From the NCBI GenBank assembly GCA_000961585.1, contig LADN01000023.1, positions 62,001-126,000 on the forward strand: a stretch of DNA of 64,000 nucleotides, given 5' to 3'. This stretch comes from Peptococcaceae bacterium BRH_c4a. Lineage in GTDB: Bacteria > Bacillota > Desulfotomaculia > Desulfotomaculales > Desulfocucumaceae. Every line of letters starts with the position of its first letter. Positions within the stretch are counted from its first letter, which is position 1. The position numbers and the translations under genes were made by a program. The notes under the pieces were generated by a model. That model was not told the DNA's origin and searched no databases. It saw nothing but the letters and a program-made list of their open reading frames with translations. This document shows, one piece after another, positions 5,245 through 28,354 of the stretch.

Positions 5245-7332
5245 TCATTCAATCCCGAGTGCTTTGAATACCGCATCTTCCGGGCTGGTGTAAAACGACG
5301 TTTGAAACTTCGCAAACAGGTCAGAAGGCACCATTGCGATATCGGCGGCAGAAGACAGAGGGAGCAGTATTTTTTTCGCTCCGGCATCAAAGCAAACCTG
5401 CAAAGTGTTGGCAAGTTCAGGTACCTTGCTGATCGTACCGCCTATGCTCATATTACCCAAAACACACATTTGCGATTGTACGGGCTTTCGGAGTGACGCG
5501 CCACACAGGGCAACAAATGCGCATAATGCCAGCTCTGACGTTGTTCCAACGCCCTGGCAATCCGCTATGTGCATCAGAAAATTGCTGGTATCAATACTGA
5601 TTGAACCACTTATAAGCTTCTTGTTAGCCTTGAAATAGTTTTGTGCTGTTTTAAGGTTTTCCCTTGCCTCACGGTCATATCCAACACCCGTTACTTCAAA
5701 CTTTCCGTTACCGCCCACCACTTCCGTTTCGAGCTTAAAGACGCCGAGCATACCGGTATCTCCATATGAAACCGTATAAACATGACCGGGTTTGCCCTGT
5801 CCTTCGGGGATCAGTTTGCCGGAACCTTGCTCCGGCACAGAAACAAAATACTCCTCAAAAGTCTCGTTATCCAAATAGGAAAAATGAACGTCATAAAACT
5901 CCATGCCGCCGATCCTTTTAAGCTGTTCCTTCACCCTGCGCCGTCCTTCAAGGGCGTATACCAGTATTTCAGCAACATCTTCCTTTGAAAAATGGCCATG
6001 AGGGTAGAGCAGTTTAATCATACCTGATACAGTTTTGCGTACGGCAATGACATCCCGCTGATTCAAGTCGCCGCCGAAGCGGAAATAGCGTTCAAAGGTA
6101 TCGCCATAGGATCGCTTGCGCATCTCGCGAAAAAACTCTGCGAGATAATCGGTGATAAAGCCGTATTCGTTTGTAAGGAATTCCGGGCGCATCTTGGGAA
6201 TTTCCCAACCGGGCAGGTAGTAGTGCATACGGTCAAAAAAAGCGCTATCATAAGCCATAGCCGCCGGGAACGGTTCAAACAGGTGGGATGTTTTAATCAG
6301 CACATCCACACTCTGGTTGATATTACCCACGAAAACCATGGAAGCGTTCGCGTTTTTTTCCTCTTTGCCCCTGGCAAAGGAACCAGACGCCATAAAATCC
6401 TTCATAATCTGGATACCGTCTTTATCCTTGAAGTTGATACCGGCAACCTCGTCAAAAGCTACACAATCCCACATGCCAACAAGCCCGATGGTTTTGTTCG
6501 ACATGTTGTAAAACAGGTTTGCAACGGTGGTCTGTCCACCTGAAATCAAAATGGAGTTGGGGGAGATTTCCTTGTAGATGTGGGATTTCCCCGTTCCACG
6601 GGGGCCAAGCTCACATAGGTTGTAGTTATTCTCCACCAAGGGAATCATCCGCGCCAGCAGATGCCACTTTGTCCTGTTTTCAAACTGCGTCGGCTCCATA
6701 CCGATGCTTCGCAGCAATACATCGATCCATTCTTCCTTTGCAAACTGCTTTCTGCCGTCGAAAAATTCCTGCATATCCATGTGTGGGAGCTGAATAGGTG
6801 TCAATTCCTCAATTTCGAAAGGGCTGACCTTATTTTTCTTGCCACCTTTGGGTGCGTCAGAGTCATATTCGTCGTAGCGCGCCTCAAGTCGGTTGTAATT
6901 CATGCGCAGGATACACCAAATACCCCCGGATAGCAATTTCTCATATTGTTTGATATAAAAGTCTGCCACGATGACGTTTTTAAGATTGAGATTGGAAAAA
7001 ACCGCCCGGTATGTATCGCTGTACGGGTCAAGTTTTGCCTCCACCTTATCGATGACTGTATAGCTGCCCATCTCACGAATTTTGGATTTTATCTTCTCCG
7101 CTTCATCGGGGCGCACAAAATTATCAGCGATAATGTCCTTGACCCGCTGTACGCCTTCTTCGATACTAACCTCGTCATCGGTGGCACAGTACATTCCCAG
7201 CAGATATTCCAGCACATAGACGGGCACATTCGCGCCTTCTTTAATTTTCTTTGTCAGGTCTTTACGGACAATCTTACCCGCAAATGCTTCCTGCAAAAGA
7301 GTATTCACACTTTTGCTGTTTTCTTCAAACAT
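5245..7332 (-). CDS. brxL: BREX protein BrxL (Lon-like AAA+ protein)
   Basis: The 695-residue protein has the BrxL layout: an N-terminal domain (EFSNLNLKNV-type core), an AAA+ ATPase with Walker A GPRGTGKSH at about residues 243-251 and a Walker B region WDCVAFDEVAG, and a C-terminal Lon-protease-like domain (TTSELALCAFVALCG, then SIGGTISKV). BrxL is the last gene of type 1 BREX operons and is required for phage restriction; structural work on the family describes DNA-binding rings. Here it is the last gene of the composite BREX-Cmr operon, 11 bp after pglZ, with a good AGGAGG site. Confidence 0.93.
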   Translation of the reverse strand: MFEENSKSVNTLLQEAFAGKIVRKDLTKKIKEGANVPVYVLEYLLGMYCATDDEVSIEEGVQRVKDIIADNFVRPDEAEKIKSKIREMGSYTVIDKVEAKLDPYSDTYRAVFSNLNLKNVIVADFYIKQYEKLLSGGIWCILRMNYNRLEARYDEYDSDAPKGGKKNKVSPFEIEELTPIQLPHMDMQEFFDGRKQFAKEEWIDVLLRSIGMEPTQFENRTKWHLLARMIPLVENNYNLCELGPRGTGKSHIYKEISPNSILISGGQTTVANLFYNMSNKTIGLVGMWDCVAFDEVAGINFKDKDGIQIMKDFMASGSFARGKEEKNANASMVFVGNINQSVDVLIKTSHLFEPFPAAMAYDSAFFDRMHYYLPGWEIPKMRPEFLTNEYGFITDYLAEFFREMRKRSYGDTFERYFRFGGDLNQRDVIAVRKTVSGMIKLLYPHGHFSKEDVAEILVYALEGRRRVKEQLKRIGGMEFYDVHFSYLDNETFEEYFVSVPEQGSGKLIPEGQGKPGHVYTVSYGDTGMLGVFKLETEVVGGNGKFEVTGVGYDREARENLKTAQNYFKANKKLISGSISIDTSNFLMHIADCQGVGTTSELALCAFVALCGASLRKPVQSQMCVLGNMSIGGTISKVPELANTLQVCFDAGAKKILLPLSSAADIAMVPSDLFAKFQTSFYTSPEDAVFKALGIE

Positions 7333-7343
7333 AACCTGCCCTC

Positions 7344-9887
7344 CTAAAACTGGATACTGCCGCCGAAAACAAGGTCAATAATAAATGGAATCCGCAGATA
7401 TTCGCTGTTCACAATCTCATCCTCATCCTTCAAAACGAGGTAGTATTTCTTGGATTTGTCATATGGCATATCTTTCAGCGTGAATTTTTCTTTGTATGTT
7501 CGCCCATCGGGTTTATCGCTTGTGCTTTCCGCGATGATGATGTTTTCATTGGAAATTCGATTCCCGGCCTCATCGGCAAAGTATGCCGTCACCCGCAGGG
7601 GCAGGAGTTTTTCGCCCACCGGCTCATTTTGGAAGAAAGTCAGGTGGGTAATGACGCTGGTGATTTTCCGTGACAGATTGGTCAGGCCGAGTGATACCTT
7701 CTTTGCGCCCATGGAGCGGTGCAGGTTCTTGTCGCTCTTAAACCGGATGACCGGTATAACAACCTCCTGCAGGTTTATCCCTCCGTGGACATAGCAACTC
7801 CCTGCGCCTTGTATCTTAAAGCAATTGGTCGCGCGGGGAATAACGGCGCGGATGTCTGTCTTATCCTTTGTCAGATAATCCATCGAAAAGACCTGTGTAC
7901 CCTGCATGTCGATGTTTTCCTTTGTCAGGATGAACCGGCGTTTCACTTCGATGGCGGCAGCGTCTTCCTTGGGCGTTTTATCGCTCTCAGCAAGAGGCGT
8001 CCGGCGATAAATATAGCCATGATCCGCAGTAATCAGAATATTGATGGCGCTGATATTGTTTCTAAGCGCTCTTACAAGCCCGGAAAGCTCACGGAAACAC
8101 TTTTCCGTGGCCTCAAATACTTCGTGCTCGGTGGCCGCGTTGTCTCCCCGGGCGTCAATCGTATTGTGATAGATATAAATCAGCTTGACGCCGGAAAATT
8201 TCTCCGCCATTTTTTTACCCATACCTATTACATGATCGTAGGTGGTTACGATAGATTCTTCCTTCACGAGCTTCAATATCTTCCCCCGGTTATCTGTCCC
8301 TTTTGTGGAGATGCCGTCGATTTCAATGTCTGCTTTGTCTGTTATGGAAATATTTTTGTGAGGCAAAAGAGACGCCATTCCAGGAGCAGTGTACGAGGGA
8401 ATCACGCCTAACATGACCTCCAATTCGCTGGACCCTTTTTGCTCCCTGTTGAGTATGGCGCTCAGCTCCACCGCTGATTCATAGCGCAAACCGTCTGAAA
8501 CAACAACAATCAGCCGCTCGTTATCGGCGACAAACCGCCTGACATACTTATCATAGAAGCATTGCTGCGATGTAACGCCGGGCACCTGCCATGCGCGCTC
8601 ATCGTCCCAAAGACCGTACCACTTCATGGATAGCTCGTTCAGATACCAGTTCGTGTAGCTGTTCTCCACCTTTTCAAAGAGCGGCCCAAAACCGTCCCGT
8701 TCTGCCAGCTTATCGTAACCTAACAGGAAATGCCGGTAACTGCTATCCAGCTTATAATATGTTTTCGTATATTCGTCAAAGAGTTTTGCCACGGTAAACC
8801 CAGACAGCTCGGCGTGTTTTTGCGCCAACTCCAAATACTCGCAGGCGTACAGCAAAACATCGTACTCTATTTTAAACTGCGGATAATACCGGCGGTTTTT
8901 CCGACTATGAATTACTTTGCGGTATCGCTCATATTCGCCCACCCCTTGGCCGATATTTTCGCAAACCCGGCTGATTATGCTGCGGTCGAATTCTTCGAAG
9001 GTATCGCAATCGACAATTTCATCGATACTCCACTTGGATGTGCGCCCGGAAAGGTTCAATCTATCTGCCACAAACCCGGCCAGCTTATTGTACGCTTCCC
9101 AAAGCTGGCTGTTTTTCATGAAGTTATCCACGAACACAAAGCAATTGGAATTTGCCGAAACATAGGTCTGCCACTCTTTCGGCAGGTTACCGTTAATGCT
9201 GTACGCCAGGTGTGTGCAAAGCAGCAGGATGGCAAGCTTCTCAAGGCTTTGTTCGGGGAAATTATAGCCATACGATTTTTGAATCAGCGCCCACAAAGCA
9301 TCCATGCTACCGAATTTGGCGATGCTGTCATAAACCGTGCTTTCCCCATTTGCCAGCTCAATCAAGAGCGTCCGCACAACGTTATCCAGATTGGGTGCTG
9401 GCAGCTTGCAGAGCGCGGACAGCACCCCTACGTCGATCTTAACCTCGGTATAGGGCGCCAGATGATACCCCTCGAACCGCTTGCAACGCTCGCTGTTGCG
9501 GAAGAACAACTTATACCGTGCCACCACATGGCGCAGGGCGCTGTCGATTTTGAAGTTCAGCAGGTTCAGTGATGTTTCGTCGGTAGAAAAGGTCTGGCTG
9601 TACTTGATGGTGTCGGTCAGCCAGTTCTCCCGGTTCGCCGGGCGGGGCAACGGGGAATAGACCAGCAGGTTGCCGGTCGTTTCCGTTTCCTCTATGTAAA
9701 GCTTTGTGGCAAACATGTTGTCGTCATAAAGCTTGATGATCTTCACGCCCTCAAGCGCAAGGCTGTCAATGTCCTCGGCAAACACGCCTTCCTCGTCGTA
9801 CCAGAAGACAATGTTACGGACGCTGCCCTGCGACAACTTGCGGGCAAATTGCCGCTCAAGGGATTTTTTAACTTCGGTTAGGTTCAT
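7344..9887 (-). CDS. pglZ: BREX protein PglZ (alkaline phosphatase superfamily)
   Basis: 847 residues, the normal PglZ length. Metal-site motifs of the alkaline phosphatase fold are present: VVVSDGLRYE at about residues 458-467 and ITADHGYIYRR at about 617-627. PglZ works with PglX and BrxC in host DNA methylation and phage exclusion. The ATG overlaps the stop codon (ATGA) of a 42-codon open frame that extends upstream through the 3' end of the cmr3-like gene. That overlap looks like old translational coupling to a gene now lost. Confidence 0.93.
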   Translation of the reverse strand: MNLTEVKKSLERQFARKLSQGSVRNIVFWYDEEGVFAEDIDSLALEGVKIIKLYDDNMFATKLYIEETETTGNLLVYSPLPRPANRENWLTDTIKYSQTFSTDETSLNLLNFKIDSALRHVVARYKLFFRNSERCKRFEGYHLAPYTEVKIDVGVLSALCKLPAPNLDNVVRTLLIELANGESTVYDSIAKFGSMDALWALIQKSYGYNFPEQSLEKLAILLLCTHLAYSINGNLPKEWQTYVSANSNCFVFVDNFMKNSQLWEAYNKLAGFVADRLNLSGRTSKWSIDEIVDCDTFEEFDRSIISRVCENIGQGVGEYERYRKVIHSRKNRRYYPQFKIEYDVLLYACEYLELAQKHAELSGFTVAKLFDEYTKTYYKLDSSYRHFLLGYDKLAERDGFGPLFEKVENSYTNWYLNELSMKWYGLWDDERAWQVPGVTSQQCFYDKYVRRFVADNERLIVVVSDGLRYESAVELSAILNREQKGSSELEVMLGVIPSYTAPGMASLLPHKNISITDKADIEIDGISTKGTDNRGKILKLVKEESIVTTYDHVIGMGKKMAEKFSGVKLIYIYHNTIDARGDNAATEHEVFEATEKCFRELSGLVRALRNNISAINILITADHGYIYRRTPLAESDKTPKEDAAAIEVKRRFILTKENIDMQGTQVFSMDYLTKDKTDIRAVIPRATNCFKIQGAGSCYVHGGINLQEVVIPVIRFKSDKNLHRSMGAKKVSLGLTNLSRKITSVITHLTFFQNEPVGEKLLPLRVTAYFADEAGNRISNENIIIAESTSDKPDGRTYKEKFTLKDMPYDKSKKYYLVLKDEDEIVNSEYLRIPFIIDLVFGGSIQF

Positions 9888-10012
9888 TTTCTTACCAGCC
9901 TTTTACGATAATTCGAACTTTTTAGCTTTGCGTATTCGACAAACTCCGGGATTATGTTGTTTCCTTCAAGCTTGTACCGCCGTCCGCAAACCATGTGCCA
10001 TATGGAGTTACT
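9884..10012 (-). pseudogene. C-terminal remnant of a lost BREX-associated gene between cmr3 and pglZ
   Basis: An open frame of 42 codons starts after a TGA at about 10015 and ends in a TGA that overlaps the pglZ ATG. It includes KLEGNNIIPEFVEYAKLK and ends NYRKRLVRK, a charged, protein-like C-terminus. It has no start codon in a sensible position and shares its first part with the 3' end of cmr3 in another frame. The simplest reading is the tail of an accessory gene that stood between pglX and pglZ before the Cmr module replaced its upstream part. I cannot name the family. Confidence 0.5.
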
Positions 10013-10941
10013 TCAAAAGTTCTTGCTTCTTGCAGAAGAGAGCCGGGAGCCCAGGCCAGGCCTTCGCTTTTAATATTCTGGCCGGCGCCTTTTACTATAT
10101 CCCAATTTCTCCCTACCAGCGGTTCTAAAAAACCCCGGCATGGAACTTTTTCCGGGCTTAACACATGGCCCCAAAGGTGTTCACCCTGACCAAGACCGAT
10201 GCGAACCACCTCTTTGTCCGGATACCACCGTCCGGGAAAACCGGGCAGCCTGATCGCCTCACTTCCATCGCTTCCCAGGATTTGCTCAGGAATCCCTTGT
10301 AGTTCCAGCAGCCCAAATCCATATTTTCGCTCTCCACCGATCTGAAGACGCTTGACCAGCTCGGTAAAGTTAACTTCACTGTTTGTATCGTTTTGGAACA
10401 GAACAATATCCCCGTCTTTTTCAATTACTTGAAATACCGCTGTTCCAGCAGATTTTTTTATCCAGAATAGTCCCCTTAAATACACAGGTGTAAAGTTATC
10501 AGCATCAGTGCGTGATGAAATAAGGTATGGATTGATAAACTCCACTTGATGCAGCAAACCCTCCTCAGCGGTAAAAGTGTCAGGTTTGACTGCGGCGGAA
10601 GCCATGGAGCTATAAAAGTCCTTTTCAAAATCCCGCCGGGTTAAAGGCTTGTCCACCAGGCCGAATTGCAGTCCTTTTCTTTCGATGTAACAGGGGAGAT
10701 AAAGCGTATCGCCTCCGGCACAAAGGTAGAGATTGCTAAAACGAAAGACTTCTCCCAGGGCTTGGCCTGTTTTCAAGTAATCGGACAAAGGAAACAAAGG
10801 TGTCAACTTTGCCGTCAGCGCTCCCCAGATGAGCTTGCCCGGAGCATAAGGGCGGGTGCGGAAAAGGTGCATTGTTTTGTGAAAGCCAATGTGCAAAGGG
10901 GAGCGAAGACGGAAGGTCCAGGTGTAAAGACTCCAGCTCAT
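9952..10941 (-). CDS. cmr3: Type III Cas5-group RAMP protein, Cmr3-like
   Basis: 329 residues beginning with a beta-strand and LRSPLHIGFHKT, as in RAMP proteins, and carrying a glycine-rich loop IGGERKYGFG at residues 201-210, the hallmark of RRM-fold RAMPs. By elimination it fills the Cas5/Cmr3 position, the subunit that holds the 5' tag of the crRNA. The last codons probably belong to the remnant of another gene: the frame after TPYGTW runs through sequence that reads better in a different frame. Its start overlaps the cmr5 stop by 4 bp. Membership of the RAMP superfamily is firm; identity as Cmr3 is moderately supported. Confidence 0.7.
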   Translation of the reverse strand: MSWSLYTWTFRLRSPLHIGFHKTMHLFRTRPYAPGKLIWGALTAKLTPLFPLSDYLKTGQALGEVFRFSNLYLCAGGDTLYLPCYIERKGLQFGLVDKPLTRRDFEKDFYSSMASAAVKPDTFTAEEGLLHQVEFINPYLISSRTDADNFTPVYLRGLFWIKKSAGTAVFQVIEKDGDIVLFQNDTNSEVNFTELVKRLQIGGERKYGFGLLELQGIPEQILGSDGSEAIRLPGFPGRWYPDKEVVRIGLGQGEHLWGHVLSPEKVPCRGFLEPLVGRNWDIVKGAGQNIKSEGLAWAPGSLLQEARTFEVTPYGTWFADGGTSLKETT

Positions 10942-11369
10942 TCTGACTCACCACCGCTTTTCAGCCCCTGCCCCGCGCCTTCTTTTTTCAGCGCCTTGGC
11001 ATGATAACGGGCATAAATAAGTGTTTTTTCGATTAAAAAAATTGCAAAGAATAACTCATCCAAATTTGATAACAAGCCGTTTTCTTTACTTAGCTCAGCT
11101 GTCAGATCGGCCGGAGAATTATTAGTAATTAACTTTTGTTCTTTTAGCAAGTTGAAAATGTTGTTTTTAATTTCCCCAGCCCCTTTTTCCTCTTTGCGTG
11201 AATCGCAAAAAAGGACCAGCGCATATAGCCCTTGTTCCTGGAGCACACCCAAAGCTTTGGTAATAAGGGTGTCGGCAGAATCTTGTCCGGCCTTTTTTAC
11301 GTCCGTGACCATCCGGATAGCCTTCGCAGCGCAAACTCGGTCCAGATTCCCATCCGTGCCGCTACTCAT
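10938..11369 (-). CDS. cmr5: Type III-B small subunit Cmr5 (Cas11)
   Basis: 143 residues, largely alpha-helical, with the Cmr5-like stretch ALGVLQEQGLYALVLFCDSR and a hydrophobic C-terminal helix. Cmr5 lines the inner filament of the Cmr complex and contacts target RNA. The gene overlaps cmr4 by 8 bp and cmr3 by 4 bp, so the three are translationally coupled. Confidence 0.82.
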   Translation of the reverse strand: MSSGTDGNLDRVCAAKAIRMVTDVKKAGQDSADTLITKALGVLQEQGLYALVLFCDSRKEEKGAGEIKNNIFNLLKEQKLITNNSPADLTAELSKENGLLSNLDELFFAIFLIEKTLIYARYHAKALKKEGAGQGLKSGGESE

Positions 11370-12345
11370 TTCCAGCCGCCTCCTCTCCCAAGTTGAGCAC
11401 CTTGAGGCGGCCCATACCCCGGGTGTTCATTCCCCCAATACCCAGGGAGGCAAACAATTTCAATCCTTTCTCCACCTGGACCTTCACCCAGGAACTCCCC
11501 ACCTCGCCTCCGTCCTCTGTCTTTAATTCTTTTTTGTTAATCCGGTAGGTATAGCCCGGATTATATTGCACGTCGAATCGAAGGACCGTGCCCCTGGGCA
11601 GCGCTTCGTAGGTAAAAAGCGCTTTATCTTCGGCGGCGCCTGTAGCCGGATCGATGCTCACCGAGGTTCTTACTTCCAAGTTATTGTTCACTATCTGGGA
11701 AAACAGCTTATCGGAAACCAGTACGCTTTTAGTCTTGATTGTTTCAGGCAAGCCTGTTATAGTATCAATTTGTTCACTAACATCATTATTATCCTTGTTG
11801 CTTTTCGAGAGCATAAGCCAGCCAAAATTCAGCCTTTGTCCGCCCTTCTTCAATTGAGCTCCCAGAGGCAGGAAGCATTTCTCCGGGTCAGGAATCTCCC
11901 GGTCAACCCCAGGACCCGATAGGGCGGTGGGAGAAGTGACCCACAGCGGCCCGGACATGGAAGCCACCGGGAAAAAGAGGATATGGGCATCGAAAAACTG
12001 GGCCAGCCCCTGCATGCTCCCCGTCCCCTTGGAAAACCCATAGGGGATACAGACGGGGCAAGCGGGGTCGGGACGCCCGCAGTGTTTCTCACCGCCCGGT
12101 CCACCGCTGCCGGCGCAAAGATACTCATCTTTTCCCTCTTTCCATCTGTACCGGCTGGTAGCCAGAGCGGTATAAGCCCGGGCCGGGCCGCTCACACCAG
12201 GACCGGGCACCTTGGGCAGGTTGGTTCCCGGCTCCCGCGCAATAGGCAGATCCACTCTCGCCAATCTGGCGCTCCCGGCACCGATATGCAGAGGGTCCGT
12301 GGCAATTGCCAGATAGTTTTTAGTTTCCGAATTACTGGCACACAT
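11362..12345 (-). CDS. cmr4: Type III-B backbone subunit Cmr4 (Cas7), catalytic Asp retained
   Basis: 327 residues. The N-terminus reads ATDPLHIGAG then RVDLPIARE; the equivalent Asp in the VDxPIxRE motif of characterised Cmr4 (Asp26 of the Pyrococcus protein) is the catalytic residue for target-RNA cleavage at 6-nt steps. Here it is Asp32. A cysteine-rich insert (CAGSG ... HCGRPDPACPVC) may bind zinc. A GIGGMNTRGMGRL loop near the C-terminus is the RAMP glycine-rich loop. The start overlaps the cas10 3' end by 14 bp. The RNase function is predicted to be intact, in contrast with the degenerate Cas10. Confidence 0.88.
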   Translation of the reverse strand: MCASNSETKNYLAIATDPLHIGAGSARLARVDLPIAREPGTNLPKVPGPGVSGPARAYTALATSRYRWKEGKDEYLCAGSGGPGGEKHCGRPDPACPVCIPYGFSKGTGSMQGLAQFFDAHILFFPVASMSGPLWVTSPTALSGPGVDREIPDPEKCFLPLGAQLKKGGQRLNFGWLMLSKSNKDNNDVSEQIDTITGLPETIKTKSVLVSDKLFSQIVNNNLEVRTSVSIDPATGAAEDKALFTYEALPRGTVLRFDVQYNPGYTYRINKKELKTEDGGEVGSSWVKVQVEKGLKLFASLGIGGMNTRGMGRLKVLNLGEEAAGNE

Positions 12346-15300
12346 CTAAATTCCTCCTCGGCTTTATTTTCCCAACCTGCAGGTGCCAGCGCAGACAGAG
12401 GTCCAGCAGGCCGTCGTCAGCTGCCTCCAGCAGCTTGTTAAAAAGCGCTCCCTCATTGCTCTCGCTAATGTCCAAGACATTAAGCAACGATGCTTTTACG
12501 TGAGCTTCCCACAGGTCGGCGTCTTCGTCTCTTTTAAACCGCTGCAGTTCATCCCGCCAGAAAGCGTAAATCTGAGAAATACTCCACCGTCCTTTATCAA
12601 GCCTTTCTTGAAACTCCTTCCACAGTTCGTCTATGCGTTGTATATCGTCTAAAAATCTGATCTCCTCGTCCACCCAGAACCTGTCGGAGGCGTTTTCCAG
12701 GTAAGCAAGCTTTAAGCAGGCTTTATCAATTTTGATCCGGTCATTTTTCTGGAGTTTCTTTACATGCACAACGTAATGCCCTTTACCGGTGTAATCAAAA
12801 GAATGATCGCCTCTATCCGGATCCCCGCCGTCAACTCTCAAATAAGGGTGCCAGTCGTCACCAATGTCCGGATCTCCCGTCGCGTAAGAAATGGTCCATT
12901 TCAGCGGCGCGTTAAGGCCAACCGCCTTCAAGGCAATAGTTCTTTTCTTTCCGTTGTTCGGGATATCCGGTTGATCTTCTATTTGCTCAATCTCCGCATC
13001 AATAGGATCACATTTTTCCTGAAATGCGTCCCCAAGCCTTTGGGCGGCGTCCATAGCCACATACAGGGGCGTCCTGCGATGAAAGGCCAAAACTCCCAGA
13101 TGCAGGGGAAGCCTGTCCCGCACCTTGGAAAACTGCCGGCAGTACTCTTCATATATCCGCTGGGCGATGGTCAAGGCATCACCGGCCGGTACCAAAGCCA
13201 TGAACTGATCAGGGGAATCATATATTTTGATGCAGGGGATATAACCCTGGAACTTGGCAGGCGCTTCACCGGCGTCTTTAAGTACATAGCCCTCCCGCCA
13301 GTCTTTATCATCTTCCCGTTTAATCCTGAGCTCCTGGCCGTGTTTATTCAAATAGGCGGCGATATCCGCAGCGATGTTGTCCCTTTTTGCCAGGATCTGC
13401 AGGTTGATGGTGCTGCAGAAAAGGGCCTCTGTTTCATCTACGCATACAGGGCTGAACCGCATTCCCCTAAGCTCCAGATCTAGTGTCGATCCCTGGGACA
13501 AGGCGGGATTAGGAGCGATTTTGAAACTAAGGCGAGCGTCTCGCCCAGTCCTTGCAGAAGGCTGCCCGGTATAAAAGCCGGGGATTATAGTGTCAAAAAC
13601 GTTCTTTTGGGTAAATGCATAGGTGGTTTCCCAAATTCGGCGTATCCGGGCAGCCGACGGGTGTTTGCGGAACAGCAGCCTGACCAGCCAATCCGCTTTT
13701 TGATCTTTCTGCGTAAGTCCCTCAGCTATGCCGCTGGCATCTCTTTCGGCAACAGGATCCCAAAAATCTTTTTCAAAGTTACTTACTTCTACTCCAAGCA
13801 GTTTTTTGCATAATTCATTCTGTTTACCGCTAAGACCGGTTGGGTCGTCAAACATTTTTTCCAACTGATTTTTTAGATCTTCAGGGGTGGTAATATTTAA
13901 TGACCCACATATATCTAAATTCTCCTTTTTCCATGTCTCAAACAGTTGGGCGGCAAAGGTACCGATCATTTTATCGGAAAGCCATGCGTCCAAACCAAAT
14001 TTGCCTATGAGCAAGGCGACCTGCCCGTTGCGATCCGCCACTTCGTCCAGCCAAATGGTGTGCCGTGAATACGGCGCATTGTTCAGCCATTTTTCCGCCC
14101 TTTTCTGATAACGCTCACTGCAGGCCTCGCACCTGTCTTTTTTTTCTCTTTTTAGCCTGATCCGGCAATTGGGGCAGATATCTTCTTTTGAAGCGCCTTT
14201 TACAGACTTGTTGTAATCCGTTAATAAAGTACTTATATCCCCCACATGCGGGAAGGCAAGCTCATTTAGTGCGGTTTCCCGCTGTCTACCCAATATAATA
14301 TAGCTGCGGCTCGGCTTTGGAGATATGACGTATTGCAAGCTATAATCAAGCGTTATTTTTCTATCTTTTATTTTTTGTTGTATCTCATTGATTAGGGAAT
14401 CGGAATCAGAAACAGCAGGAAAAGAAAAGTATATACCCGTAGCATCCCGGTAGATTTCGTTCCCCAGTGGATAGCAAAATTCAACGAGGTTTTTTATCTC
14501 AGCAAAGGCCGTTTCAACTGCCTCGCCATAGCCTAAGATATCACCGACTTTCAGACCTTTGGACATAAGCCCTATGCGATCAACGTTAAAGCTCAGGATA
14601 TGCCACCGCGATTTTCCCCTTGGCTCCGACCAGCCCTCCAGAACAATTTTAGCCAGACTGGATTTTAGCAGCGCAGCGATGGAATGGACGTAGTCATACA
14701 GAGAAATTTCGTTCAAAGGCCTTCTTGTTTCTGCGATCGCCAGGGGATAGTAACATTTAAATAATTCCATTGTATCTTGGTATAATTGGTAGGAAGTGTT
14801 ATCATCGTTTTCAAATCGCTCACTTTGAATCCTTCGCAATAATACTTCCAGTTGCAGGAAAAAATTCTTTTTCAGCTCGGGATCTGTAAGCAGTGGGATT
14901 TCCATTTCATAGCCGAATGCAGTGGACATAAAAGATTTCCCGCTTTTTTGTCTCCCCGACTGGTTCCTCCCCGCCAGTTCCTTCTCTATGCCGGAGACGA
15001 TGCCGTGCGCATCGGCAAGGATTTGGCGCAATCCTTTGAGATTGGTCCCGGTATGTTTATTTATATAGCTTTTAAAAGACTCTACTCTATTTGATTTAAG
15101 CTCTCCGGGATTAGAAATCTTAAAACTATTAAATAAACCGGCCCAGGTATTATCTTGCAAAATATTGCCTAAAGCAGTGCCGCAAAAAAAATCTTCGTTA
15201 CCAGGTTTACATATGTCCTTATATGAATATTTCTCAGTAGAACCTTCTTCTTTGCTCCTAACATGTTTTTCGGAAAAACGGCCTAATAGGTGCAAGTACG

Positions 15301-15364
15301 CTGCCAGCTCAGCCAGGAGAATAGGTGTGCGGTTATCCGCCAGTTTCTGCAATTGGCTGCTCAT
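12332..15364 (-). CDS. cas10: Large Cas10 subunit of Csx11/Cmr2 type with both catalytic centres degenerate
   Basis: 1010 residues. The N-terminal HD-like domain contains AAYLHLLGRF where active families have LLHDIGK, so the HD pair reads His25-Leu26. A Cmr2-like SLYDYVHSIAALL segment follows. The first palm domain spans roughly residues 250-340. A zinc ribbon has Cys at 397, 400, 412 and 415. The second palm reads IYDSPDQFMALVPA where active cyclases have Y-x-GGDD-x-LALVP: GGDD is replaced by Ser717-Pro718-Asp719-Gln720. The family (Csx11, more than 900 residues, RAMP module neighbours) fits subtype III-C-like systems, in which an inactivated polymerase domain is known. It lies 1 bp after cmr6. 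Predicted role: structural large subunit without cyclic oligoadenylate synthesis or DNase activity. Confidence 0.85.
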   Translation of the reverse strand: MSSQLQKLADNRTPILLAELAAYLHLLGRFSEKHVRSKEEGSTEKYSYKDICKPGNEDFFCGTALGNILQDNTWAGLFNSFKISNPGELKSNRVESFKSYINKHTGTNLKGLRQILADAHGIVSGIEKELAGRNQSGRQKSGKSFMSTAFGYEMEIPLLTDPELKKNFFLQLEVLLRRIQSERFENDDNTSYQLYQDTMELFKCYYPLAIAETRRPLNEISLYDYVHSIAALLKSSLAKIVLEGWSEPRGKSRWHILSFNVDRIGLMSKGLKVGDILGYGEAVETAFAEIKNLVEFCYPLGNEIYRDATGIYFSFPAVSDSDSLINEIQQKIKDRKITLDYSLQYVISPKPSRSYIILGRQRETALNELAFPHVGDISTLLTDYNKSVKGASKEDICPNCRIRLKREKKDRCEACSERYQKRAEKWLNNAPYSRHTIWLDEVADRNGQVALLIGKFGLDAWLSDKMIGTFAAQLFETWKKENLDICGSLNITTPEDLKNQLEKMFDDPTGLSGKQNELCKKLLGVEVSNFEKDFWDPVAERDASGIAEGLTQKDQKADWLVRLLFRKHPSAARIRRIWETTYAFTQKNVFDTIIPGFYTGQPSARTGRDARLSFKIAPNPALSQGSTLDLELRGMRFSPVCVDETEALFCSTINLQILAKRDNIAADIAAYLNKHGQELRIKREDDKDWREGYVLKDAGEAPAKFQGYIPCIKIYDSPDQFMALVPAGDALTIAQRIYEEYCRQFSKVRDRLPLHLGVLAFHRRTPLYVAMDAAQRLGDAFQEKCDPIDAEIEQIEDQPDIPNNGKKRTIALKAVGLNAPLKWTISYATGDPDIGDDWHPYLRVDGGDPDRGDHSFDYTGKGHYVVHVKKLQKNDRIKIDKACLKLAYLENASDRFWVDEEIRFLDDIQRIDELWKEFQERLDKGRWSISQIYAFWRDELQRFKRDEDADLWEAHVKASLLNVLDISESNEGALFNKLLEAADDGLLDLCLRWHLQVGKIKPRRNLDVCQ

Positions 15365-15365
15365 C

Positions 15366-16559
15366 TTAACCTACCTCCCGGAGCAGGAAATTTACTTTTT
15401 CCTCTAATTCGGAAAAACTGCCGAAGCAAACCGGGCTGTCAAGTCCCTGCAAGCATAGGTTTCCCCGGCTTTGCTCCCAGGAATCCTCAACGACGCCCCA
15501 GCCGAGTGATTTTTTAGCTGAAAAACCGTATTGTAAAAGCAGGGTTTCCAAGGCGGCGGCAACGGTCTTCAGGTCGCAGATGGCTTCATGATTCCGCTTT
15601 TTGTTCTGTGTCTCTTCCAGGTGGTGCAGGGGCACGTAAAGCAGCCGGAACATTCCCCTGGCTCCCCGGGGCGCCACCTCGTAATAAATGGGGTTTTTCC
15701 CCGCCTTGTACTTTCGGTCGTGGGGGTTGAGCACAGCCATTTCCACTTTGTCCCAAAAGGTAGGGAAAAAGTGGAGCATGCCAGCCGTGTGAGCCGTTTC
15801 CTCATCTTTCCGGGGGCCTTTGCCGGCGGAGAAAAGGTCTTTTACCTGCCGGCGAAATGCATCCTGGGCTTTCCTTCCACCCAACCTGTCCAGATGAGCC
15901 GCCCAGCCGGAAGGATTCGTCTCCAGGCCTTTTTCCGTTCCAAAGAGAAGGCAGTGCTGCAGCCGTCTGCGGGCAAACTGTTCCGGATTTTTTTCAACCG
16001 GTTCCAAATGCTCTTTCATCATCGCCCAACGCAAGCTTCCCTTCCAGGTGGGCGCCGCCGTAAAAGGCACGCCGAAAACCTTATCCACCCGTAAGGGGTT
16101 GTCAATGATATAAAAAGGAATGTCGTCACGGGAATAAAAAGGTGAAGCCAGGGTAAGCGGCAGTTCCAAAGACCAGCTCCCTTCCGGCAGCCCATGGAGA
16201 TCAACCAGGTTGTCAATGCCCAGCAAGTCAAGCTCTGAAAGCCGGCACGCGATATAATCGTTGTAGCTTCCGCCAGAGTGCATCACAGTTTTCAGCCCCG
16301 AAGGACTTTGCCCTTCGCCTGTTCTGGCATATGCCTTCGGATCTATTCGATCAGGCCTGCTCCTTGCGTCGGGGAGCTTGCTATCTATGCCCAAAGCGGT
16401 AACAAGCAGCCCGGTCCTGGCTCGAAGGTCATTGATTTCAACATATTTCCCTTTTCCCCGGACCAGGTCGTTGATATTTCTCTTTTCCTTTTCTCTTTTT
16501 TCTTCCCGGCTCCCTTCCCGTTCCTGAACTGAAAAGGCGGCATAATAATCATAAAGCAT
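15366..16559 (-). CDS. cmr6: Type III Cas7-group RAMP protein, Cmr6-like
   Basis: 397 residues with RAMP features: TAAPTWKGSLRWA at residues 168-179 (Lys-Gly-x-Leu-Arg motif after the first strand pair) and a C-terminal glycine-rich loop GFSAKKSLGWGVV at about 355-367. In Cmr complexes Cmr6 caps the filament at the 3' side of the crRNA next to Cmr1. The first 30 residues are strongly charged (EREGSREEKREKEKR), an unusual N-terminal extension. The gene lies 3 bp after cmr1 and 1 bp before cas10. Cmr6 identity is by synteny and length. Confidence 0.75.
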   Translation of the reverse strand: MLYDYYAAFSVQEREGSREEKREKEKRNINDLVRGKGKYVEINDLRARTGLLVTALGIDSKLPDARSRPDRIDPKAYARTGEGQSPSGLKTVMHSGGSYNDYIACRLSELDLLGIDNLVDLHGLPEGSWSLELPLTLASPFYSRDDIPFYIIDNPLRVDKVFGVPFTAAPTWKGSLRWAMMKEHLEPVEKNPEQFARRRLQHCLLFGTEKGLETNPSGWAAHLDRLGGRKAQDAFRRQVKDLFSAGKGPRKDEETAHTAGMLHFFPTFWDKVEMAVLNPHDRKYKAGKNPIYYEVAPRGARGMFRLLYVPLHHLEETQNKKRNHEAICDLKTVAAALETLLLQYGFSAKKSLGWGVVEDSWEQSRGNLCLQGLDSPVCFGSFSELEEKVNFLLREVG

Positions 16560-16562
16560 TTA

Positions 16563-17891
16563 TTAACATCCCTCCTCTCCTTCGGAAAGACTATCCAGAT
16601 AATTTAAGTAGTCTTTATTGTCAGGTGAAACCGTATCCCTGGGAGAGCCAAACTCCCGCCATACCGACAGACCGCCCTTACTTGCCTTGTCTCCAAAAAG
16701 TTGACCAAAGGGAAAGGGGGCCTTCCCTCGCCCTTCCAGGCTAGCTTTTAATTCATTCAAAAACATAGTTTTTATCTCAAACCGGCCGTCTTCCGGAGGG
16801 AGCCAGCCCCAGATGCGAAACTCCCACTGACCGTTATTTACCGGGTAGGCGCAGGAAACGTTGACCTTTGCGGCATTTTTGTTTATCGATTTTTCTTTTG
16901 GAAATGATTTTCGGCAATATCCACAAAAATAATTTCTGGCATTTCTGTTATCTTCTCTGACAGTGCCATAACATGAGGGACACAACGTTTTTGTTGAGCC
17001 AAATAACCAGTTGGCTACATTTTGCTCGAAATTTTGATCGCCTTTTTCCCACAAAACCTTTCCGCCACCGTAGCGCAGCCAGTTTTTCACCGCGGGAGCT
17101 ATGGGGACCGAGCCGGATTCTATCCAGTTATTCATCCTAAGATCTTCCGACCAACCCCGGTAATAATCGTTTTGATCTCTTTTTCCCCGTTCTCTAATTC
17201 CATCCACTTCCTCCCACCAGTTATTCCCTGTGGAAAGGCGTATTTTCGTAAAAAACATCTCTTTTAAATTTGGCATAGCAAAACTATTGGCTTCTTCCCG
17301 GATTTTAAAACCGGAAGGCAACATAGTTTTGAGCGCCGTCAATTGATTAAAAAACGCTGTTGCCTCCACTTTCAACTCCGCTTGTCCAATGATGTCCGTT
17401 ACACCGTAGCCATGCTGGGTCCTGGCGCCGAGGCAGCCCCAGCGGGTTGCAACCAAAAGCGGCAACATAATTAAAACTGGATCAAAATAAGCCTTGTAAG
17501 GAATGACAGATAAGTCTATTTCTCCCCAAAGTCCACTGCCCAAGCGCCAGCCGTTTGTCCTCCCCCTGGGGACAATATTGATTGGCGGGCCGTTAAAAAC
17601 ACTCTTGCCGCCGGCAAGCCGGATCTTAAAAGCGCGCTGCCAGCCGGTGGCGCCAAAGAGAAGGCAGCCCGGGCAGTAAAAATAAATCTCTTTTTTTTGC
17701 TGTTCCATTTTTTCGGGACATCGCCCGTCCGAAACAGGATCGCAAACAAAAGTTTTTTCCAGCCCCAACATCAGCGCCTCAGTCCACCAGCGCAGGGATC
17801 CCATAAAGCCCGAAGCCCTGACGATATCGCTCCTGGTGTCGATATCACCTGTCCAAAGCGGGGTTTTAAGTTTCAGTTTTATGGTTTCCAT
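16563..17891 (-). CDS. cmr1: Type III-B subunit Cmr1 (Cas7 group) with extra zinc-finger segment
   Basis: 442 residues. The start LKLKTPLWTGDIDTRSD, the motif GFMGSLRWWTEAL (28-40), CPGCLLFGATGW (73-84) and LGARTQHGYG (154-163) are diagnostic for Cmr1, the subunit at the 3' end of the crRNA that helps bind target RNA. A CPSCYG ... FCGYCRKSF segment at about residues 305-330 forms a four-cysteine zinc finger that appears to be an insertion. It is the first Cmr gene, 66 bp after pglX, and starts the embedded cassette. Confidence 0.88.
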   Translation of the reverse strand: METIKLKLKTPLWTGDIDTRSDIVRASGFMGSLRWWTEALMLGLEKTFVCDPVSDGRCPEKMEQQKKEIYFYCPGCLLFGATGWQRAFKIRLAGGKSVFNGPPINIVPRGRTNGWRLGSGLWGEIDLSVIPYKAYFDPVLIMLPLLVATRWGCLGARTQHGYGVTDIIGQAELKVEATAFFNQLTALKTMLPSGFKIREEANSFAMPNLKEMFFTKIRLSTGNNWWEEVDGIRERGKRDQNDYYRGWSEDLRMNNWIESGSVPIAPAVKNWLRYGGGKVLWEKGDQNFEQNVANWLFGSTKTLCPSCYGTVREDNRNARNYFCGYCRKSFPKEKSINKNAAKVNVSCAYPVNNGQWEFRIWGWLPPEDGRFEIKTMFLNELKASLEGRGKAPFPFGQLFGDKASKGGLSVWREFGSPRDTVSPDNKDYLNYLDSLSEGEEGC

Positions 17892-17957
17892 TTAAATTTC
17901 GTCACCTCTCCCCTCAAGCCTTTTCCTGCTTCACCGATGCAAAATATTTACACTCCC

Positions 17958-20900
17958 TCAAATCTTTGCCAGCAAATCCATCTTCACAGTTTTGCCATTG
18001 TCCTTCGGCACTTCGACGCCTTGGAATTTCGCGTAGTTCACCGTCACACCGTCGTCAAGGTCAAGCTCAATAGCCTGATGCGCGATGTGTGCCACCACCT
18101 GATCATATATCCGGCACTCTTCGATCCGCTTTTGCAGGGTTTCGATTTCCTTGCGGTAGGCCGCCTTTTCCCGGGCGTTTTCGGTGATGCCGGAAAGCAT
18201 CTCCAGCCGCCCGATCTCCGACTCGTACTTGCGCTGGAGCGGATGCAGGTAATCGGTGCGCACGCGCGCCACGGTAAACTTATCGTAGCGGTGCAGGTAG
18301 ATGAGCGCCTTGAAGCCGTCCTTCTTGCCGCTGTCAAACAGCCAGTAGATGGGCCGTTTCTGGTATGTCTTTACATGATCCTTGTAGAAGTCGTTCAGGA
18401 AATAGCGTCGGATTTTCTCCTTAGACGATCTGCCGCCATTGGGGTACAGAGCATCGGCGATGAAATTTAAGTTTTCATCCAGGGTAGCATCACCATACAC
18501 CACTCGGACAAAGTCCACAAACCGCACCACGATGTCGTCATCGAAGTAGTCGCTTGCGCCGATGGGGAGGACGGCGTCGCATGCGACGCCGTAGTGGGCA
18601 GTGGTTAGTGGGCAGTGGGCAGTTTCCTTTTTTGCCAAACAATCAGTTCTTGATAACTCTGCACACCCATATTCCCGCAAAACCCCCTTCAGATAATACC
18701 GCCCACTAACCACTGCCCACTGCCCACTAAATTCGCCTCCGGCGAATTGCAGCCCCGGCTCGTCCAGACTATACCGCCCGAACATGCAACCCACGGCGTA
18801 GGAGATAAAGCTGCGGATGTCCCGCGAGAGATCGGCCTTGCGGATGGTCACGTCCTTGTCCTCGACCTCCGGGGTCAGTTCGTCCTGAAGGCCGTAGATT
18901 TCGATAAAGATTCGGTTAAGTTCTTCTTCATTGGCTTTAAGTTTGGCAAACTGGTCTTTGGTTAATAGTTCCCACTCTTTGAAAGCTGATGAAATCATAC
19001 TTTTTGATTTTGCGTCGCCCCAAGCACAAACACCGGCCATTTTGAAGCCAACTAGTGGATGCACTCGGAAATTCCATGAGATTTCAAAACTATCCCAATC
19101 AGTACGAGAAATTAAAATATTTTCATGCACCAACTCACAAATTCTATTATTATCAGAAATGATTAATGGTTGGGATATTATATCAGTTATATTTGTGTTA
19201 ATTGTTGGGTTTAATAGTTTAACGATTTTGTCTGCAATTGGTGTATTGAGGTAGCCTAACACATAAGCAGTAAGGTTCTCATCATCGAAAAAGATAGACG
19301 GGGCAGCAAGATTAAAAGTTGAGTCATTTTCGAGAATTCTTGCAGCAAACTTATCACCTCCTGCGATCAACGTCCAGCATATCCCCGTACGAAACCATAT
19401 ATATTCTGGAGCGATCCTTGCAACATGATCTGATCGATAGTGCTGCCGAGCTGATTCCGACCAGTCTATCAATGTATCAACATTTCCAAACCATCTGCGA
19501 TAGGAGCCTCCCTTTGCATGAAACACCCACTTTTTTTCTTTGCCAACCTTAGTTGTATCTACTTCCCATAATAACCGTAGAAATTTGTCATTATTACCTG
19601 TTTTAGTCTGACCATCTGAAATCGCATATTTAGATATCTTTTCATGAGTAAAAACCTCACTTAACGCATTGCTAACCCAATACGCTATAGGCATACCAGG
19701 TATCTTCTCGAAATTTTTCTGCTTAGTGATAAACCTATCTACACCCAGTAAAAAAGCTTCTTCTTTGGCTACTTGACTTGGATAATTAACCAGTCGTACA
19801 TAAGTCGCTTTATATTCAAAAATGTTGTTATTACGCAAAACAAAGGCGGTTGTCTGAACAACTTCGCCGCTGATTTCTTCAAATGCTCTTGCACCCAAAT
19901 GAGCCATACTGACAATATCCCTAAGCAATATCTTGTCTCGTAGCTTTACATAGCTGGACAAGAACATCCATGCGTGTTGAGTAATCATAGCCTGAAAACC
20001 ATTTGGATTAAGCATTTGGCCGCACTTCTCGATTAACACAGCAAATAAATCGCTCTTACTATCAGGATAATTCTGCTTAACATACTCCGACAGCTTACCA
20101 CCCATACCTCCTGACCCCATATACGGGGGATTGGTCACCACAACATCATACATATGGGTCATGATCTCCGCAACGGACAAAACCTCAAGCAGGTTCCGCT
20201 CGGTCTGGTCAATACCTGCGGAGTAAATATCCAACTGCCCAAATAGAACATCATTCACAAAGCGCCGGAGCCGGTCATAATCCAGCGCCCGGTTGATTTT
20301 GAGAATGGAGCCGTATTCCCGGGCGTCAGCAAACAGTCTCATGAGATAAGTAAGGTCGTCTCTGCATTGCTGCTGCTCGGCCTCGCTCATGCCGTGGCCC
20401 ATATAGTCCAGATGATGCCGCCGGGCTCCATCGGATTCGATCACGGCGTGGACATGGGGCTGGGGAATGCTTTCCTGCCGGAAAAAACGGCGGTTATAGC
20501 TGCGCGCCTTCATCATCAGCGCGAAGTAGGCAAGCTGCGCCGCCCGCCCGTCAATGTCCAGCCCATAGAGGTTGTGTTGCAGAATCAGGTTCGGTATATC
20601 GCGGGTGGCATAGCCCAAATGCTCATACGCCTGATACAGCACGTCGAAGGCATAAACGAGGATATGCCCGCTGCCCATGCAGGGGTCGATGATTTTCACA
20701 TTTTCAATGCTAAATACAGTGGGCAGTGAGCAGTGATTAGTGAGCAGTTGTTGGCGCACTTCATCTGTTTGCTCCGCTTCTTCAATGTAATACTTCCAAC
20801 CGGCTTTAAGCTTTTCAATACTGCCCACTGTCCACTGCCCACTGCTCACTATAACTCGCCCCAGCGAGTTTTCCACCATGTACCGGACAATCCACTCCGG

Positions 20901-21665
20901 CGTGAAAAGCTGGGTGGCGGCGGGTATGGTTTCCTTGTTGATCTTGATATTTTTTTTCAGGCCAGCAAAAACCTCGTCTTTTTTTTCGGAGATGTAATAC
21001 TGGTACAGCCAGCCGATAATCTGCACTTGATCGCGGAAATTGTCCTCGTCGATGGAGTGGACAAGATCATGCGCGATACCGCCCTTCCGGTACAGGGCGT
21101 CGGGCAAAAGCAGCTCGGTATAGTCGTCAATCTTCTCAAACATCCCCGGCAGGATGTCTGACAGGGCGTTGCATTGGGAAATCAGGATATACTTGTACAG
21201 CTTTTCGGATGCGTCGATACCGGTGGCGGCGCGGTATTCGGCGATTTTGTCCTGATTGACATAGGGAAGCCGTTCGGCCTCGCACATAGCGTCCGGCTCG
21301 GCGCGGCCTTCGTCCCGGCTTGAAAGGATGCGGATACCGGAAGGCAGGTAGTCGTTTACTTCCATGAAACGCAGGGCAATCAGGCGGTTAAACCATGTGT
21401 AGGCTACTTCCTCCATCACATGCTGATACGCCTTTTCGTTGTCCAGCTCATTGCCCAATAAAGCCAGATACGCGCAAAGCCGCCCGCGCGCCCACGATTG
21501 TTCGGGCGTCATAAAGATACCGTCGCTGCGCAGTTTATGATACGCCTCATCGGGGGGCAATGCGCCGTCTTCATAAATATACAACTGATAAGCCTTCTGC
21601 CGGACAGCCTCGATGAGCTTCCGGCGCGCCGCCACAGCGTAGTTTTTGATTACTGTCTTATCCAT
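17958..21665 (-). CDS. pglX: BREX adenine methyltransferase PglX, with embedded inverted heptad repeats
   Basis: 1235 residues, the usual PglX length. The SAM-binding motif DPCMGSGHILVYAFDVL lies at about residues 320-336 and the catalytic NPPY motif VVTNPPYMG at about 507-515. PglX methylates a non-palindromic 6-mer on host DNA and is needed for exclusion. Two regions read as translated repeat DNA rather than normal protein: about residues 271-317 (SSGQWTVGS ... LLTNHCSLPTV) and 978-1025 (SGQWAVVSG ... TAHCPLTTAHY). Both keep the frame open. The gene starts 33 bp after brxC; the next gene downstream is cmr1, not pglZ. Confidence 0.9.
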   Translation of the reverse strand: MDKTVIKNYAVAARRKLIEAVRQKAYQLYIYEDGALPPDEAYHKLRSDGIFMTPEQSWARGRLCAYLALLGNELDNEKAYQHVMEEVAYTWFNRLIALRFMEVNDYLPSGIRILSSRDEGRAEPDAMCEAERLPYVNQDKIAEYRAATGIDASEKLYKYILISQCNALSDILPGMFEKIDDYTELLLPDALYRKGGIAHDLVHSIDEDNFRDQVQIIGWLYQYYISEKKDEVFAGLKKNIKINKETIPAATQLFTPEWIVRYMVENSLGRVIVSSGQWTVGSIEKLKAGWKYYIEEAEQTDEVRQQLLTNHCSLPTVFSIENVKIIDPCMGSGHILVYAFDVLYQAYEHLGYATRDIPNLILQHNLYGLDIDGRAAQLAYFALMMKARSYNRRFFRQESIPQPHVHAVIESDGARRHHLDYMGHGMSEAEQQQCRDDLTYLMRLFADAREYGSILKINRALDYDRLRRFVNDVLFGQLDIYSAGIDQTERNLLEVLSVAEIMTHMYDVVVTNPPYMGSGGMGGKLSEYVKQNYPDSKSDLFAVLIEKCGQMLNPNGFQAMITQHAWMFLSSYVKLRDKILLRDIVSMAHLGARAFEEISGEVVQTTAFVLRNNNIFEYKATYVRLVNYPSQVAKEEAFLLGVDRFITKQKNFEKIPGMPIAYWVSNALSEVFTHEKISKYAISDGQTKTGNNDKFLRLLWEVDTTKVGKEKKWVFHAKGGSYRRWFGNVDTLIDWSESARQHYRSDHVARIAPEYIWFRTGICWTLIAGGDKFAARILENDSTFNLAAPSIFFDDENLTAYVLGYLNTPIADKIVKLLNPTINTNITDIISQPLIISDNNRICELVHENILISRTDWDSFEISWNFRVHPLVGFKMAGVCAWGDAKSKSMISSAFKEWELLTKDQFAKLKANEEELNRIFIEIYGLQDELTPEVEDKDVTIRKADLSRDIRSFISYAVGCMFGRYSLDEPGLQFAGGEFSGQWAVVSGRYYLKGVLREYGCAELSRTDCLAKKETAHCPLTTAHYGVACDAVLPIGASDYFDDDIVVRFVDFVRVVYGDATLDENLNFIADALYPNGGRSSKEKIRRYFLNDFYKDHVKTYQKRPIYWLFDSGKKDGFKALIYLHRYDKFTVARVRTDYLHPLQRKYESEIGRLEMLSGITENAREKAAYRKEIETLQKRIEECRIYDQVVAHIAHQAIELDLDDGVTVNYAKFQGVEVPKDNGKTVKMDLLAKI
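18590..18732. repeat. Inverted GTGGGCA heptad repeat pair A inside pglX
   Basis: The left arm (18591-18622) is built of GTGGGCA/GTGGTTA heptads and the right arm (18698-18728) of the complementary TGCCCAC units, about 75 bp apart. The arms could form a stem of about 30 bp. Translated in frame in PglX. Confidence 0.75.
20716..20853. repeat. Inverted GTGGGCA heptad repeat pair B inside pglX
   Basis: The left arm (20716-20750) carries AGTGGGCAGTGAGCAGTG units and the right arm (20820-20853) the complementary CACTGCCCACTG units. The 70 bp between them encode normal PglX sequence (KAGWKYYIEEAEQ), so the arms look like separate, oppositely oriented insertions. The pair is related in sequence to pair A. 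Confidence 0.75.
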
Positions 21666-24600: not shown

Positions 24601-25295
24601 TTGCCCTCGGATTTGCTATACCAGCTCCGCGCGGCGTCTACGCTCATTTTAGTCGTATCGGCAAGCGCCTGCACGATATTATCTTCTTCAAAATAGAAAT
24701 CCTCACGGGCATTTTCCCATTCATTGCCCGAAAGCTCTTTGAAGCGGGCGCGGAAGCTGTCGTAGACGCCGTCCTTGCTCATTTGCCGCTCCAGATCGGC
24801 AATCCAGGGCATACTGCCGCAAAAGCCCTGCATTTTATTGAAGACCTTCATGAACACCTTGACAATAGCGTCTTTATTTGTCTTGGAATCGGAGTCGGCC
24901 TCCGCGTCAATGTTAAACAGAATGACATCTGCACTGGTATTTGACGCCACCTGCATATCCGCCATAATCCGGCTGTCGGCTATCTTGCCTTCAAAGAAGC
25001 CGATGGCCTTCTTACCGTCGTACGTCTTATTTGAAAGAAGATAAGAAAGAATCTTGAGGAAATGTGATTTGCCGCTGCCAAAGAAGCCGGAAATCCAGAC
25101 GCCCATCTTATCGGTACGAATCGTCGTTCCTTTGCGATAACTCTCAAAGAATTCATCAAAATAGCGGTTTAACTCCTTGGTGACGACATACTCATCCAGT
25201 TCCTCCGTGATCATTTCAGTTGAATCCTGTCCGATCTTTACGACGCCCTGGATTTGTCTGGCGATGTCCTTTTTAAACATGTCTCGAATTATCAT
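21699..25295 (-). CDS. brxC: BREX ATPase BrxC
   Basis: 1198 residues from the ATG at 25295, chosen over the TTG at 25316 because AGGAG sits 7 bp upstream of it and the peptide then begins MIIRDMFKKDIARQIQG like other BrxC proteins. Walker A GFFGSGKS lies at residues 70-77 and a Walker B-like FVIFLCDEIGQYI follows around 265-280. BrxC is a very large P-loop protein essential for BREX methylation and exclusion. About 10 bp follow brxB and 33 bp precede pglX. Confidence 0.93.
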   Translation of the reverse strand: MIIRDMFKKDIARQIQGVVKIGQDSTEMITEELDEYVVTKELNRYFDEFFESYRKGTTIRTDKMGVWISGFFGSGKSHFLKILSYLLSNKTYDGKKAIGFFEGKIADSRIMADMQVASNTSADVILFNIDAEADSDSKTNKDAIVKVFMKVFNKMQGFCGSMPWIADLERQMSKDGVYDSFRARFKELSGNEWENAREDFYFEEDNIVQALADTTKMSVDAARSWYSKSEGNYSLDINTFARRVCEYIEAKSKAIGKKHFVIFLCDEIGQYIGSDSGLMLNLQTVVENLGTECGGQAWVIATSQQDIDSITKVDRDNFSKIIGRFDTRLSLSSANVDEVIKKRLLAKTDTAADKLRLLYADKAAILKNLITFSPDTPEKKLYSSPEDFVDVYPFISYQFNLLQAVFTGIRTHGASGKHLSEGERSLLNAFQEAALQFRSFEDGLLIPFNAFYKTIETFLDHNIRAVIIKAAESAERSDGALQPYDVEVLKVLFMVKYISNVLPANLENITTIMLQNIDQDKIEAKKKADASLRRLEEQKLIIKNGDQFIFLTNEEQDINREIREIKIDTSEIIEKVGDDIFSALFGLNKKYRYNDRYDFSFNTIIDDRPRGAQKEEIGIRVLTPMYALGSAIEIELKTMSMRERNVIVTLPSDMAFIEEMEQALQIETYIRRNAGNTSTDVVENIKTTKAREGKQRADRCRELIIEALKRADIYVYGNKLDIKEKQPSERINDAFKALVEGIYTKQSYITKPFYTSDSLREILTAKDTQITLEGLEPTAPNHLAVTEMSDVITRSSYKNIPITMRSLIDILGKIPYGWKDMDIAGIVLTLFKKQEIRLELGGENIAGTDVNVINYVTKREYLERILIRTRVKISPVLIANAKNLAKDVFGRSDVPNDEDGLMDRIKELASAELTRHDPENPGIKQLLDEYGKNARYPGKAVLESGKKLFEEIERIKDIKAFYDFLSDEKDALLDYEEDVQDIKKFIKNQKVIFDKALQMLTIYEGNRSYVLDPETIKLVEAIEHITRLPSPYSEIHKLPELMDQFMTCFVNLLEEECKPIRVDIEADRAAALSDLERRSCKESFSDKVRADFAALLKRLSHANNIYEAIAMRTESDRMKQRFIQSFDEEEARIAARQACAGEDAIPPAPARKTKTVSLKTLFHGTTQVSSKDDIDKLLDHLRAKLEDQLEENTTIKII

Positions 25296-25305
25296 CTCGC
25301 TTCTC

Positions 25306-25887: not shown

Positions 25888-25890
25888 CCG

Positions 25891-28308: not shown

Positions 28309-28354
28309 ACTGCAAATCCTCCACTCCCCGGTTCAAATCCGGGTGTCGCCTCCA
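28309..28354 (+). repeat. attR: 46-bp copy of the tRNA-Cys 3' end
   Basis: Exact copy of 603-648. The sequence upstream does not complete a tRNA, so this is the displaced 3' end of the original tRNA-Cys gene at the right border of the island. Confidence 0.9.

Follow-up and report, generated by a model that had tools for sequence, protein, structure and literature searches.

A probable HEC-02B remnant between a type III-C effector cassette and pglZ in a BREX operon

Introduction

BREX operons are known to carry additional genes among their core genes. Modules of an auxiliary nuclease and an OLD-ATPase have been described as embedded in BREX core loci (PMC12839542), and on pEFER the gene brxU is inserted between brxC and pglX (PMC8565348). 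Here we analyze a stretch of 64,000 nucleotides from Peptococcaceae bacterium BRH_c4a (contig LADN01000023.1; the whole stretch is hereafter called the window), where a type III-C CRISPR effector cassette is situated between pglX and pglZ. A sequence-only reading of this DNA had proposed that the junction of cmr3 and pglZ is the scar of a replaced accessory gene, a 42-codon open frame being its tail.

Results

All six type 1-like BREX genes are found in order in the window, i.e. brxA-brxB-brxC-pglX-[cassette]-pglZ-brxL (Table 1), and the cassette is a type III-C module in which Cas10c is accompanied by the subunits Cmr1, 3, 4, 5 and 6. No repeat array (CRISPR) was found in window positions 1-32000. 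Flanked by tRNA sequence, the BREX and III-C region has the look of an island, and no integrase was found among its scanned ORFs. A tRNA-Cys gene is located at 574-648, and a 51 nt copy of its 3' part, 98% identical, lies 27.7 kb away at 28309-28359; window 28302-28354 is matched at 100% in a genome of the same genus (G299). The island further contains, downstream of brxL, an HTH and IrrE-like peptidase gene (2081-3223) beside a GGDEF gene (3315-4259), and upstream of brxA there is a transposase fragment (DUF772, 27224-27739). Within pglX we found a direct repeat of 54 nt (76%; 18695-18748 and 20817-20870), rich in CCCACT runs, near which the pglX homology of Pelotomaculum terephthalicicum and G393 breaks.

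Table 1. Features of the BREX operon and of the cmr3-pglZ junction, in window coordinates.
Feature	Position	Strand	Basis or remark
brxL	5245..7332	-	
pglZ	7344..9887	-	PF08665 E 8.8e-51; 97% identical in G389
Stop-to-stop frame, 42 codons	9884..10012	-	composite, not a gene
pglZ leader, HEC-02 allele type	9888..9902	-	leader alignment
Probable HEC-02B remnant, last ~8 codons, with 2-nt indel	9903..9927	-	ends GAA TTA TCG TAA
Breakpoint zone, ATACG common to cassette end and HEC-02B	9927..9936	-	alignments; putative deletion joint
Cassette DNA, 21 nt after the cmr3 stop	9931..9951	-	common to L037 (P. terephthalicicum); blastn to 9931
cmr3, last gene of the III-C cassette	9952..10941	-	PADLOC Cmr3 E 3.7e-64; own stop 9954-9952
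III-C effector cassette (cmr1, cmr6, cas10c, cmr4, cmr5, cmr3)	9952..17891	-	
Left junction, 12 nt from pglX stop to start of shared cassette DNA	17946..17957	-	
pglX	17958..21665	-	PADLOC PglX, E printed as 0
brxC, brxB, brxA	21699..26493	-	

The interval between pglX and pglZ is a slot that holds different defence cargo in related bacteria. By searching for pglZ at E 1e-20 or better, we found 16 places in 13 of the 113 genomes of the order, and the pglX-pglZ gap was covered in 12 of these (all except G393:C11, G392:C303, G330 and G388). Cargo was present at eight of the 12 loci, the four empty ones being G393:C7, G384, G382 and G397:C69. Besides the III-C cassette of the window, the cargo consists of HEC-02 (G392), a RelB/YoeB pair together with a decayed III-C cassette and a HEC-02B remnant (P. 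terephthalicicum, G319), a 189-aa HEPN-like gene with only a CARF_HEPN match in PADLOC (E 0.0012; G389), two small genes (G311), one MNT-like gene (G346), a 260-aa gene (G397:C23) and a RelB-like pair (G360). The MNT and HEPN labels for the G311 and G346 cargo, the toxin partner in G360 and the HEPN-like label in G389 were given by eye and are tentative. Since the ATG of pglZ is exactly where homology to G389 and G393 sets in again, exchange of cargo through recombination in the conserved 3' end of pglX and 5' end of pglZ would be plausible.

The 42-codon frame (SNSIWHMVCGRRYKLEGNNIIPEFVEYAKLKSSNYRKRLVRK, read from 10012 to 9884) crosses the 64 bp gap between the cmr3 stop at 9952 and the pglZ start at 9887. 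It terminates in EYAKLKSSNYRKRLVRK, its stop overlaps the start of pglZ as ATGA, and it has no start codon of its own, all of which had been reported earlier and is borne out by the coordinates and the translation. As an open frame it is at chance level, since a frame of at least 42 codons spans the gap in 91% of 5000 resamples (first-order Markov, 10300-9600), and openness beyond chance was thus not found. Stop-to-stop frames of at least this length make up 739 of 4836 in the window, and within 10 cas and BREX genes (19.9 kb) there are 82 off-frame stretches of at least 42 codons on the sense strand. Searched against the 113 genomes of the order, the 42-residue peptide matched itself and, in P. 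terephthalicicum, the corresponding cmr3 DNA read out of frame (E 5.7e-11). Of the 14 genomes with a match of any kind, the remaining 12 had E values of 0.005 or worse. Similarly, when the peptide was compared by blastp with eight cargo proteins of pglX-pglZ intervals, no hit was better than E 0.09.

We consider it very improbable that a replaced gene actually had this frame as its C-terminus and lent its last codons to cmr3, as the sequence-only reading had it. The frame is indeed open and overlaps pglZ as ATGA. Against this, no homologous protein ending in the same residues was found between pglX and pglZ elsewhere (113 genomes, eight cargo proteins), and the first half of the frame is cmr3 read out of frame, i.e. 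DNA that is common to the cassette also where other DNA lies downstream. Furthermore, the frame is closed in the relative G392, with stops just upstream, and the resident gene there (HEC-02B) is read in another frame. In the part shared with P. terephthalicicum, five out of five differences are nonsynonymous in the 42-codon frame; this selection test is weak and does not discriminate, because cmr3 itself has 13 synonymous and 31 nonsynonymous changed codons. The frame is a chance frame, formed by the end of cmr3 and the probable HEC-02B stub read in a third frame, and is probably not translated.

The end of the cassette can be located by comparison with P. terephthalicicum JT, whose cmr3 product is 91% identical over all 329 residues. 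At the DNA level the two are 95.5% identical over window 11201-9931, the identity ending at GTCGAATACG, 21 nt past the cmr3 stop, and the C-terminus SLKETT is common to both. Beyond the shared DNA, that of P. terephthalicicum is different. Because the sharing extends to 9931, the cassette includes the last cmr3 codons and also the initial third of the gap. Consequently, cmr3 has not borrowed its last codons, and the breakpoint previously placed at 9.99-10.02 kb is moved by these alignments to near 9936-9927. A frameshifted cmr3 tail was also weighed and is dismissed: P. terephthalicicum shares the stop, and cmr3 homologues end variously within ~0-16 residues of this position. In G406, which carries the closest Cas10c relative, the DNA past the cmr3 stop was uninformative as to where the cassette ends. 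No promoter- or terminator-like site was found at the cmr3-pglZ junction.

Past GAATACG, the window reads CAAAGCTAAAAAG. Aligned to the 3' end of HEC-02B and the pglZ leader of G392, where the pglX-pglZ slot contains an intact HEC-02A (PADLOC E 3e-126) and HEC-02B (E 4.2e-59), window 9927-9896 agrees at 26 of 30 aligned bases, with four mismatches and one 2-nt gap. The score of 33 compares with a mean of 13.3 for shuffled sequences, none of 2000 shuffles scoring as high, and this segment is the best of 2842 tiles covering the whole window, the next ones scoring 25. The leader of P. terephthalicicum alone gave a weaker match to the window (10 of 2000 shuffles as high), and scores at chance level were obtained with the leaders of G389 (HEPN-like allele), G393 (empty slot) and the first P. 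terephthalicicum copy (RelB/YoeB allele). The similarity to HEC-02B is thus found at the same position relative to pglZ, and P. terephthalicicum provides an independent relative in which the same cassette lies beside a HEC-02 allele (residues 86-169, 82%). The reading frame of HEC-02B is not kept throughout the stub, ~4-5 codons being in frame before the 2-nt indel; it ends in ELS and a stop in the window, as against ELP and a stop in G392, and differs from the 42-codon frame. The match is short, and the comparison comprises one intact HEC-02 allele (G392) and one remnant (P. terephthalicicum).

Leaders can hold conserved ribosome-binding sequences, and the remnant measures just ~25-32 nt. The gap could therefore be regarded as an ordinary pglZ leader plus cassette flank, in a lineage where no accessory gene was ever present. 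We hold this to be unlikely, since the leaders of G389, G393 and the first P. terephthalicicum copy are unrelated and only HEC-02-type leaders match, and since homology to G389 or G393 starts exactly at the pglZ ATG. Moreover, the pglZ DNA of the window is ~96% identical to that of G389 and ~79% to that of G392, and because the leader is nevertheless unlike that of G389, it goes with the cargo and not with the pglZ phylogeny. Judging from these alignments, an accessory defence gene very likely once lay between pglX and pglZ and left its last bases in the gap. The idea of a scar at this junction thereby survives in part, with another frame, another gene and another breakpoint than first proposed.

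The only assembly showing a possible intermediate is that of P. terephthalicicum JT (locus L037, from G319). To the right of its cassette, a second pglX tail (L037 9008-9278, 271 bp, 90% identical to the intact tail of the same strain) is followed by half of HEC-02B (residues 86-169, 82% identity) and then by pglZ at L037 9558. The start of the pglX-HEC-02 intergenic region resembles the HEC-02 allele of G392. To the left are an intact pglX, the RelB/YoeB pair and small scattered pieces of pglZ. The cassette itself (L037 6867-8990) is decayed, with cmr6, cas10, cmr4 and most of cmr5 gone, and the codon changes given above show no purifying selection on its cmr3 relative to the window.

Lastly, III-C modules were surveyed in a phylum set of 398 genomes, 23 of which have Cas10c, at 25 loci. 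The flanks of these loci were compared with type 1-like and PglXI/BrxHI BREX proteins, the window and G236 being classified by their own annotation. At six of the 25 loci the module lies in or directly against BREX genes, a number that is a lower bound because several contigs are short. The positions are between pglX and pglZ (the window and G150), between PglXI and BrxHI (G171 and G285), between BrxC and PglXI (G223), and directly after BrxA (G236). Leaving the window aside, III-C modules thus lie inside or directly against BREX operons of different types in five genomes (L085, L090, L095, L089 and L087). The Cas10c tree places the window with the non-BREX G406 (100/100) and G150 with G160 and G236, and the two pglX-pglZ embeddings are therefore separate.

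Discussion

The reading that we favor, with a probability of roughly 0.68, is that the cassette arrived in a HEC-02 slot and that a later deletion of ~0.5 kb left the HEC-02B stub before pglZ. The III-C cassette would first have come to lie upstream of HEC-02 cargo, an arrangement of which P. terephthalicicum may still show a decayed form. In a P. terephthalicicum-like ancestor, the deletion may then have run between two ATACG motifs, namely GAATACG in the cassette and GCATACG in HEC-02B, and would have eliminated the copied pglX tail together with almost the whole of HEC-02B, so that the last ~8 codons remained ahead of pglZ. Both the ATACG deletion and this order of events are what we infer. 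The window also needs a second change, on the left side, because the RelB/YoeB pair and the pglZ fragments found left of the cassette in P. terephthalicicum are absent from it; their absence is not accounted for by the right-hand deletion.

Conversely, the window could represent the original insertion, in which the cassette directly replaced HEC-02, the arrangement in P. terephthalicicum having arisen later by recombination of two BREX alleles. This would agree with the tight junctions of the window, i.e. 12 nt after the pglX stop and a 64-bp gap, with its complete cassette as opposed to the one in P. terephthalicicum that lacks cmr6, cas10, cmr4 and most of cmr5, and with the same tight pglX-cassette-pglZ order in G150. 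It would, however, require two joinings of the right end of the cassette at or beside TACG, one to HEC-02B and, in the other lineage, one to pglX, whereas a single deletion event on the right side suffices under the history of arrival followed by deletion. Direct replacement is accordingly given little weight, somewhat less than the ordinary leader discussed above.

On a wider scale, we tentatively suggest, at somewhat less than even odds, that III-C modules are recurrent, exchangeable BREX cargo. Their uptake would have occurred repeatedly, in type 1-like operons into the pglX-pglZ slot and in operons of the PglXI/BrxHI type into other positions, where they may replace other defence modules via conserved flanks and may act jointly with BREX, the gap in the window being the footprint of one such swap. 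The repeated nesting makes it testable whether RNA-guided and methylation-based systems cooperate or merely share a slot. What began as a weak ORF has in this way become a record of defence-system replacement in one operon slot, which may be filled by HEC-02, toxin-antitoxin, HEPN-like, MNT-like or CRISPR genes, or by none.

In the literature searched, mostly without subscription papers, we found no report of a III-C module inside BREX, and PMC12839542, in which CRISPR, Cmr and Cas10 were looked for, gave no such cargo case. The modules described there are alike in being exchangeable defence cargo in a BREX operon, and they include OLD-ABC/nuclease pairs as well as HEPN and MNT genes, similar to the sister alleles treated here; they differ from the window in that the section on embedded modules names no CRISPR effector modules and describes neither a scar nor a breakpoint. 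The brxU gene on pEFER is likewise a second phage-defence gene within a BREX operon, but it is a single intact gene in another slot, and the passages on it (PMC8565348) mention no replaced predecessor. HEC-02, as defined by the PADLOC models HEC-02A and HEC-02B, is found as an intact pair in G392, as half of HEC-02B in P. terephthalicicum and as ~8 codons in the window, where it is a stub only and not a functional system.
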